This document shows, piece by piece, positions 1,212-4,697 of a DNA stretch of 64,000 nt. Every line of letters starts with the position of its first letter. The first letter of the stretch is position 1. The stretch lies in contig NC_068558.1 in the NCBI RefSeq assembly GCF_022201045.2, positions 3,534,001 to 3,598,000 on the forward strand, given 5' to 3'. The stretch comes from Citrus sinensis. Its lineage: Eukaryota > Streptophyta > Magnoliopsida > Sapindales > Rutaceae. A program made the position numbers and the translations under genes. The notes beneath the pieces were generated by a model, which was not told the DNA's origin, made no database searches, and worked only from the letters and a program-made list of their open reading frames with translations.

Positions 1212-1300
1212 AAGAAAAATGGGAAATTTACACCAATAACCATAAAAATTTTAGTTTTTTCCATCTTAACCCCTCAAACAAATTTCTATCAACATTAGCC

Positions 1301-1700
1301 ATAAAAGAACCGTTGAGACCAAATTACCCCTCTCTCTCATCTCCCTTTCCTCTTCCTCTTGCCTTCCTCTACTAATTTCAGCATCCACCTCTTTCTTCTT
1401 CTTCTCTCTCCTATAATCCTCGTAATTGTTCGGTCTAGCGGGGTCGTGCTCCTCGATTACGGTCGAAGTGACGTCGACCAATGCCGGTTGCGGCAGCGCT
1501 ACCACGTCGTCGGCGGAAGGTGCGATTGTAGGTGAGGAATGGGGTCTAGTCGGGAGAGAATTTTGGGTGGTTTTGGGTTTGGATTGGGGCTTGAGGATGG
1601 TCTGTGGTGGTGCGAAAATTGACCAGACAGTGGTGGTCGTGTTGGTGGGTTTGTCCTCATCGAAGGGTGGAGGTAGGTCTCCGTACAACTTGCCTAGCAT
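1301..1700 (-). pseudogene. Captured 5' fragment of DRT111 / splicing factor SPF45 gene
   Basis: From the ATG complementary to 1698-1700 the minus strand reads MLGKLYGDLPPPFDEDKP, then a Pro/Ser/Thr-rich stretch with FAPPQTILKP, then QPALVDVTSTVIEEHDPARP, NNYEDYRREKKKK and a charged R/E helix. I recognise this order as the N-terminus of plant DRT111 (SPF45-like splicing factor), which continues in the intact protein with G-patch and RRM domains. Here homology stops at the left terminal repeat of the Pack-MULE and the frame runs into transposon sequence, ending at 1266. Both functional domains are missing, so this is a gene fragment and not a working splicing factor. The same frame is open upstream through the palindromic array, giving a 278-codon chimeric frame (1266-2102) if non-ATG starts are ignored. 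It might be transcribed, but no expression can be inferred from sequence. Confidence 0.8.
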
Positions 1701-1910
1701 TTCGCAACGTGGCTTTTGATGGAAAATCCTGGGGAATTTGAATTCCGAAATTGGATTTTGGAGAATTAAAAAGCTAATTTTGTTTTGTTGTTTGGGTTGT
1801 CGGATGAGATTCGATCTGAGGTAGAAGAAGATATTACATACGAATAAGAAGAGACGAACAAAGACGAAAGGACTGGCGAAAACAAACAAATACTGAGGTA
1901 GAAGAAGGCA

Positions 1911-2106
1911 ACTTGTCGCACGAAGCTTGGTGCGACAGGTTGCCTGTCGCACCAAAGCATGGTGCGACAGGTTGCCTGTCGCACCAAAGCTTGGTGCGAC
2001 AGGTTGCCTGTCGCACCAAAGCATGGTGCGACATGTGCCTGTCGCACCAAAGCTTGGTGCGACAGGTGCCTGTCGCACCAAGACTTGGGCATGTCGCACC
2101 AAGCTT
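1911..2106. repeat. Palindromic 32-bp tandem array inside the Pack-MULE
   Basis: About six units contain GGTGCGACAGG and its inverse CCTGTCGCACC, separated by 1-3 bases, so every unit is itself a hairpin. The start points of GGTGCGACA fall at 1929, 1961, 1993, 2025 and 2056, a period of 32, 32, 32 and 31. Spacers alternate between AAGCTTGG and AAGCATGG, which implies a 64-bp higher-order unit. Because 32 is not a multiple of three, the array cycles through all frames and stays open on both strands. It lies subterminally, next to the right inverted repeat. Confidence 0.9.
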
Positions 2107-4697
2107 CTTTTCGTTCGTAAAGAAGGGTAATTTGGGGAGAAAAGCGTGTGTTTGGCTAATGTTGATAGAAAAAAGTTGAGAGGGTTAATTGTGAAAATAG
2201 CAAAAATTTTATGGTTATTTTCGTAAATTTCCCAAGAAAAATCTGTGTGAATTTGAAAATTAAGGGTAATTATCAGAAACCTCCCCTGAGGTTTTAGGTA
2301 TTCTCAGTTTGATAGATTATATTCACGTATTCTCAATCACCTCCCTTGAAGTTAGAATACCATTTATTTGACCGTTTGTTGCTTGATTAAATGACCAAAA
2401 TACCCCTGAGTTGAAAAAAAATGATATACATCCAAGTACAACTAAAAGTATAATGAGAAACGGAAACGAATTTAGGGGAGAGAGAGATTGTGAGTTCTGA
2501 AAATGGATTATAGATATAATACTCTACTGTTTAAAGAATAATAAATATGGTAACATCTGCTGAACTTTGGGGTTTATTTCATGGGTTATCTATAACTTGG
2601 CTATATGGCTTTCGCTGGGTGATAGTGGAAGTGGACAGCAAGTGTATCTTGTAGTTAGTCTCTAATTCAAGCCCCACCATTAATGAGCATCTTTCTCTAA
2701 TCCAAGCCATCCAAGAGCTTATCCGCCGTGATTGGGTTATTCAAATAAACCATATATTACCGGGAAGCAAATGCAGCAACATATTTTCTTGCTACTTATA
2801 GCTTATCTTTTCCTTTAGGCCTCAATTGCTTTCAATCTATTTCGTTAAATATGTTTAGCATCTTAAACAATGATGTCTCTGGGGTTGCACATTCCCGTCT
2901 TTTTAGAGCCCTTTATTAATAAAAAAAAATAATAATAAATATGAAATCACAACAATGAAACCTACAACAAATGCTGAAGTTACATGATAAACATACATTA
3001 TATGAAAACACACAATGAATCAACAAATATACAATAAAGTAGGAAAAATATGGCTTCTTTGCTGGAAGCGAATGCGGGACTAGTTCACTTTAATGAGGAA
3101 GCTCTATACGGAGAAATGAAGTCAGATTTTTTTTTTCCTAGCTCGGTGTCTTATCAGAGTTTGCCTGCGAAGGAATAGGTGTGATTTCTGGCTTTAATAT
3201 TGCAGGGCACACAAATTCAAATTGACAATAGCAGCATTTCCAATGGAGTGAAACTGGCCTCTCGCTCACCCTTCCAGAGTTCAAGACAAACTTCAAATTG
3301 GCTCTGGAACAAATCATAATTGTATGCAAATTTTTCTGCTCCGAGCAGTGACTAATCTCTTTGAAACTTATATATGCTTTAAAGCACCTAAATAAATTAT
3401 TGCAGAAAAAATGGTACAAGCTTGAACTCATTTTATATAATGCAATAATCCTAGTATTTCTGAGACACACACATAAATTATCATTTCTGTGGAGCAGCAG
3501 GCATGTTGATATAAGAAAATCAGCAACATAAACAGACCGTGATTCATTAAAAAATAAATCCTTAATCGCGATCACATCGAAAAAAAAAAAACCATCCAAA
3601 TGTACACACCTTGCATTTCTTTTTTGAGATTCGGCAAGAAGTGTGTTTCATGCTCAAATCTTTGTATCCACTAATATTGGATTTCTATCAGTTTCTCTCA
3701 TAGGCATCTGGATAAATAAATGTCCTTTGTAGCAAACAAAATTACGAAAGCATCAATTGAAATTAAATAACACCATTTTCAAGTGGAAGGTTCAGAACTA
3801 CAAAATTATGATAAGCCAAAAATAGAATTTGAAGATAACCCAAATAGTTTAACTTACGTTGGCAGCTCATATGTTAGTCCCTCAGACAATAATTGATCAA
3901 TGTTGTCTTGTATTTTCTTAATGATATTAGATTAATCATACATACAAGTGTGAGGCACCGCTCCAGTGCGAGAGAATGCAATAAATCATGACATTTTTTC
4001 AACCCTCATGTACATATCACGATTAAGGAGAAAAAAAAAACAAAATCAAGTATCCTCAACATATTAATATATACTTCAAGGTATCTCCAACACTTAATTA
4101 CATATGTAATTTAACAAAAACTAACATGAATCCCTGTTCAACAATTAGTGGCGGTAGCTTAAACAAATAAAAAGTTTTCATACCCATTTTCAATCATTCA
4201 TAAGGCAACATAATATAGCTAAAGCCATCTTCAATCAAAATCAAGTGAGCATGCATTTACGAAAATCATTAACCTACACCTAACACCCATTGATGGAAAA
4301 AAAATGGAAGCAACAGAGACACTCTCAAAATATTAAGACCCATTACTCATTTTTTGCCAAATTGATTAATTCTAGTTAAAAAAAAAATCTGACTTGCACT
4401 GTAACTTGCACTGTAATAAGTCATTTTCATACCTCATTTGCAGCTCGAACAAACTAAAGTTGTTTGTGGGTCAATGGCAAAGCTCAGTGGTCGGCATTCT
4501 TCTACTTGGCGATCATGATTCAGTCATCCCTGGTGTTGGCATCTTCGGGTTCGTCGTCATGGTCTCCTGATCATGGCATCCTTTTTCTATTAAAGCATTG
4601 CAGAGATAGAGAAAATGAAAGGGTTGTTGTTCTTGGTAGCTTTGGTTTGAACTTTGAGTAAGGAGATGCCCATTTTTTTTTTGAGTGATAATATTCA

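Follow-up and report, generated by a model that had tools for sequence, protein, structure and literature searches.

This locus raises the question of how the beginning of a splicing-factor gene came to lie between inverted repeats upstream of another gene in Citrus sinensis, and whether the resulting structure serves any purpose there. The sequence analysed, here called the window, is a stretch of 64,000 nucleotides. The answer that best fits the evidence, and which we regard as highly probable, is that the locus holds a member of a Mutator-like element family with terminal inverted repeats that captured a piece of DRT111 a single time, left many descendants and has since drifted neutrally, the copy in the window probably being without function.

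Anatomy of the Element

Positions 1221-2233 of the window form a non-autonomous Mutator-like element (MULE) of 1,013 bp, bounded by GGGAAATTT...AAATTTCCC, whose ends are labelled Mutator-type on the length of the terminal inverted repeats (TIRs) and the size of the target site duplication (TSD). The TIRs of this copy measure 82 nt and are 78% complementary, in agreement with the original prediction of inverted ends of about 80 bp, and the perfect 9-bp duplication that it described is present (9/9 identical positions). The components are arranged as follows:

1212..1220, no strand: target site duplication AAGAAAAAT, left copy, 9 bp
1221..2233, no strand: entire non-autonomous MULE (Pack-MULE), 1013 bp
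1221..1301, plus strand: left terminal inverted repeat; end conservation with sister elements reaches ~1343
2153..2233, minus strand: right terminal inverted repeat; end conservation with sister elements begins ~2101
2234..2242, no strand: target site duplication AAGAAAAAT, right copy, 9 bp

All frames longer than 100 aa in the 1013-bp element derive from DRT111 or from a palindromic array inside the right end; the element contains no transposase of its own, and P0001 has no Pfam family match. The window element therefore shows the tested marks of a Pack-MULE (ends, TSD, host-gene cargo, no transposase), which is the anatomy first proposed for it.

The Captured Sequence and Its Parent Gene

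The minus strand reads MLGKLYGDLPPP... from position 1700, and its translation agrees with the predicted DRT111-like N-terminus, DRT111/SPF45 being the name that we take to apply to the captured gene. The search for a parental locus that had been proposed was run against the genome with 1340-1740 (41 matches; 39 of 39 candidates scored). It identified 37 element loci carrying the fragment and a lone match outside any element, C2:27993161-27993784 (L039), which is the parent, in the same genome. In the parent, the frame runs on to encode a G-patch, and an RRM lies in an exon-like frame further on, so that the gene has the make-up of DRT111/SPF45; a structure-database search contributed nothing beyond one weak G-patch match. 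The captured piece extends over 1330-1895, and not 1301-1740 as given initially, and comprises ~370 nt of coding sequence and ~195 nt upstream of the ATG:

1330..1700, minus strand: DRT111 exon 1 coding part, captured; 45-bp deletion (common) and 12-bp deletion (shared with L041)
1701..1895, minus strand: captured sequence upstream of the DRT111 ATG (5'UTR or promoter-proximal)

With gaps left aside, the window copy and the parent differ at 35 of 564 aligned bases (93.8% identity). The alignment used for divergence, tree and substitution counts contains 30 copies, L070-L076 (7 of the 37, with large deletions or insertions) being excluded, and these 30 differ from the parent at 29 to 43 positions (divergence 5.0-7.5%). 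Within the 9.9-kb parent locus, the elements match the captured stretch and nothing else.

A Single Capture with Many Descendants

Both ends were delimited in 34 of the 37 loci, L068, L071 and L074 being copies without delimitable ends. Perfect 9-bp TSDs, all mutually different, flank 31 of these 34, and imperfect ones occur at L059 (7/9), L061 (6/9) and L063 (7/9). A segmental or retro-duplicated pseudogene fragment, with no transposon involved, would leave neither TIRs nor differing perfect TSDs at 37 dispersed loci; nothing was found in its favour, and we consider this explanation to have a negligible chance of being correct.

A 45-bp segment that is flanked by two TTGAC repeats in the parent is missing from every one of the 30 aligned copies, and the shared deletion points to one capture; its join was also read in L071, outside the alignment. 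One ancestral element thus carried one DRT111 5' stretch, and its descendants lie at no fewer than 37 places, with fresh 9-bp duplications. A 12-bp deletion relative to the parent is found in the window copy and L041 only.

The 30 bodies differ pairwise by 2.8% on average and by 5.7% at most. Eleven of the 435 pairs are identical, including every pair among L045, L046, L047, L051 and L052, and since these five copies share identical bodies of ~686 bp, the amplification is recent. In the tree, 14 copies form a clade (support 100/99), and L041 is the partner of the window copy (100/98), in both cases with a bootstrap that had not settled. L041, the closest copy, differs from the window element by 0.45% over the body, consistent with the youth that had been attributed to the insertion. 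A search with the joined window flanks found no paralogous empty site, the matches being the two flanks of the window, each by itself, and a repeat family to which the right flank belongs. Of the 247 candidates for this other dispersed repeat, which occupies 2260-2420, 40 were scored, and these are 78-92% identical.

Junctions and the Mode of Capture

The left junction of the captured piece falls in a CTCTCTCTC-like stretch that is found in sister ends and parent alike. At the right junction the match to the parent runs to ATACTG and is followed by CTGAGGTAGAAGAAG and then by GAAGGCAACCTGTCGC, where CTGAGGTAGAAGAAG exactly repeats 15 nt that lie 77 nt deeper in the captured UTR. GGAAGGCAACCTGTCGC precedes the palindromic array also in L072, L073 and L075.

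1893..1907, minus strand: 15-nt junction filler that repeats 1816-1830 of the captured UTR exactly
1914..2107, no strand: array of 31/32-bp palindromic units (TTGGTGCGACAGG / CCTGTCGCACCAA) inside the right end; length varies between copies

The filler may be the footprint of a template switch, and two switches with 3-4 shared bases would be the expected trace of gap filling with template switching, a model described in PMC8277862; this reading draws on one capture with low-complexity junctions. The short shared junction sequence and the filler together suggest that the DRT111 stretch was copied into the element during gap repair with template switching.

Alternatively, neighbouring elements on either side of the gene could have been excised aberrantly and so have captured it, as in the model known from Arabidopsis Pack-CACTA elements (PMC13317346). 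Family ends do lie close together at L058, L067, L076 and L077, which speaks for this explanation. However, no family end has a match within the 9.9 kb that surrounds the parent gene, and a filler from the same UTR is more easily produced by template switching, which makes bracketing an unlikely route and leaves gap repair as the preferred one.

The Palindromic Array

The units of the array, which the original prediction did not mention, are each a near-perfect palindrome of 31/32 bp. Folded as RNA, the array reaches -144.9 kcal/mol, whereas shuffled sequences give -74.1 (sd 4.3; z -16.4; 0 of 200 shuffles as good). The unit has 335 matches in the genome at two mismatches or fewer, some places being counted on both strands because the unit is palindromic, and the reversed control has none. 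Sister elements without DRT111 (L078, L080, L081, L082 and L084) also contain the array, which must therefore predate the capture. The array inside the right end is a feature of the family and would gain and lose units as copies form.

Its counted length in the five body-identical copies is 226, 257, 259, 257 and 152 nt, meaning either that the array changes far faster than by point mutation or that some arrays are misassembled. The arrays of L043 and L044 show odd, scattered single-base differences between otherwise identical copies, which could be assembly errors.

A more speculative proposal, to which we give little credence, is that the array acts as an engine of capture, its hairpins stalling or breaking repair synthesis so that gaps are repeatedly filled with pieces of host genes beside it. 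Were this true, it would account for the many different gene pieces within one TIR family, for the change in array length between otherwise identical copies, and for the DRT111 right junction as a double template switch that ends at the array flank.

Evolution of the Captured Frame

The captured coding sequence continues into the end of the element as an open frame:

1266..1700, minus strand: 144-aa chimeric open frame that leads from the DRT111 N-terminus into the TIR

It lies within a single 278-aa minus-strand frame at 1266-2102, which begins in the palindromic array and continues through the captured UTR to the DRT111 piece.

A frame of 144-148 aa is intact in 20 of the 30 aligned copies, shortened in 8, and without a start, by string search, in 2. 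Counting each derived base once, 55 of the coding changes among copies are nonsynonymous, 32 are synonymous and 6 create stops, close to the 58.2, 30.5 and 4.3 expected when changes with the same mutation spectrum are placed at random (5000 simulations); the captured frame therefore evolves as neutral DNA. C>T or G>A changes make up 67 of the 93, an excess such as methylated DNA would be expected to produce, and the copies are accordingly likely to be mostly methylated.

A selected protein, consisting of the DRT111 N-terminus and a tail encoded by the TIR, could be imagined from the number of intact frames and from the coding indels, whose lengths are in most cases divisible by three (45, 12, 3 and 3, against one of 4, too few to weigh). 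However, the substitutions lie at the neutral expectation, and the intact frames belong mainly to the young clade, so that age accounts for their intactness. The neutral pattern thus speaks against a conserved chimeric protein; we rejected it, and judge the chance that one is made to be very small.

Position Near an Arm-Repeat Gene and Possible Effects

A minus-strand gene has its ATG at 770, 450 bp from the end of the element, and shows matches to DUF7792 and Arm, so that its earlier label as ARO-like is reasonable; the stated distance of about 450 bp upstream and the shared minus-strand orientation of gene and captured fragment are likewise as described. The promoter scan used a bacterial sigma-70 model and is uninformative on this plant element. 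It is conceivable, and in our view improbable, that the insertion alters expression of the Arm-repeat gene, the argument in favour being that the captured fragment is on the same strand and includes the sequence just 5' of the DRT111 start codon. Likewise conjectural are the promoter supply and the chimeric transcript that were put forward initially. The window copy is one recent insertion upstream of this gene, most likely functionless itself.

The copies might also yield small RNAs that act on DRT111 or bring about silencing of the family, with the array hairpin or convergent transcription as their origin. The array does fold far better than its shuffles (-144.9 vs -74.1 kcal/mol), and maize elements with captured genes, including Pack-MULEs, are siRNA reservoirs according to a review (PMC13317346). 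However, small RNAs from the hairpin array, whose sequence does not come from DRT111, would target the family and not DRT111, and the 30 copies have diverged from the parent to the extent given above (5.0-7.5%), which also argues against an action on DRT111. We regard such small RNAs as a doubtful proposition, and a copy without function remains the preferred reading.

The Wider Family and Its Other Cargo

Other copies of the TIRs, for which a search had been recommended, are numerous: the end pattern has 317 matches in the genome at one mismatch or fewer, and the reversed control none. With the parental DRT111 locus also present, neither of the two in-genome findings named beforehand as refuting the reading was obtained. 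Of the sister loci, eight that do not carry the fragment were fetched (L077-L084), and all eight lack any match to the parent locus; 9-bp TSDs flank four of the four sister elements with two ends in hand. Ten frames from family elements were scanned against Pfam, six with a match and four without. Matches above the curated cut-off are Ammonium_transp (L079), protein kinase (L084), DUF1985 (L083) and Methyltransf_29 (L074, itself a DRT111 carrier), and those below it are LRR_14 (L077) and DUF1985 (L078). The frames without a Pfam match are from L081, L075 and L072 (two). In or beside L074, adjoining the Methyltransf_29 piece, lies a frame resembling part of a Copia-type retroelement.

Over 382 bp, the ammonium-transporter piece of L079 and the locus L089 share 98.2% identity, and since the family ends were not found in 3.4 kb of that locus, L089 is the likely donor. 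L072-L075 retain the outer borders of the DRT111 stretch, with the middle gone and other sequence inside. The insert of L075 matches C2:31352581-31353566 (986 bp), C9:18585547-18585805 and C6:19254062-19254265, each at 98%, and this sequence is tentatively read as a later capture.

Two left-type ends occur in the elements L077 and C3:38770775. The latter (L078/L085, C3:38770775-38774896) is 4.1 kb long, with a 9-bp duplication, CATTTCACT, and DUF1985-type frames. L083 and L087 are elements with the same ends and DUF1985-type frames.

Search for a Source of Transposase

Copies of the element would be moved by a MULE transposase encoded elsewhere. None of the 150 MULE domains scored, of 899 candidates in the genome, was found linked to these TIRs, which counts against the preferred explanation; among the TIR-end matches listed (100 of 317), the nearest to a MULE-domain match that was noticed by eye lies ~12.6 kb away.

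Two candidate partners were rejected. The element at C3:38770775-38774896 has DUF1985-like frames, and no frame above 70 aa in it looks transposase-like by eye. The second, at C5:25.88 Mb (L086), has a 738-aa transposase-like frame, and no family end lies in the 5.4 kb around it; the family end 12.6 kb from this frame (L087) is part of a DUF1985-type element. The L086 frame (C5:25880200-25885600) is situated between long tandem repeats on both sides, and repeat-family matches of a similar kind occur at C5 25.67, 25.84 and 25.91 Mb, as if a large segment had been repeated.

Relation to Known Elements and Significance

Pack-MULEs of rice, tomato and other plants share with the window element the MULE ends, the 9-bp TSD, the gene-fragment cargo and the lack of a transposase, and the element is an unusually prolific member of this established kind. 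The palindromic 31/32-bp array inside the right end sets the window family apart from them, and we know of no described family with such an array in that position. More than 3,000 Pack-MULEs are reported from rice (PMC13317346), and one third is the share given for multicopy Pack-MULEs in PMC8277862. The 37 loci from one capture exceed the tomato PM-ZIBP, for which 13 copies with tandem TIRs plus 1 are described, and are also high beside the 29 given for a tomato family without a gene piece (PMC3310237).

CitMule, from Citrus, has in common with the window family the MULE superfamily and A/T-rich 9-bp TSDs, and is described as a 6.9-kb element of autonomous type, non-TIR, with short degenerate ends (PMC4334395). 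The window family differs in its ~80-bp TIRs, and none of its copies that were read yielded a transposase.

DUF1985 is a partner of Ulp1-like genes in KIU/Kaonashi-type MULEs, to which the family can be likened through the DUF1985 domain, or a similar frame, in the sisters L078, L083 and L087. Unlike those MULEs, the family has TIR-type ends and no MULE transposase was seen at these three loci. Capture of Ulp1 is reported in non-TIR MULEs (PMC13317346). In sweet orange, three MULEs are reported to have given 31 of 40 spontaneous structural variants (PMC9832951).

No description of this TIR family or of a DRT111 capture was found in the open-access literature, as judged by titles and the start of abstracts. 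The kind of element is already known; copy number, serial cargo and the palindromic array make this family a good study case. How MULEs take up genes is called unresolved in PMC13317346 and PMC3310237, and one dated capture that left dozens of descendant copies, among them some with identical bodies and others holding further host-derived stretches, offers a natural series in which that uptake can be followed. The DRT111 copies also provide a testable case of whether small RNAs from a captured piece may act on a splicing-factor gene.
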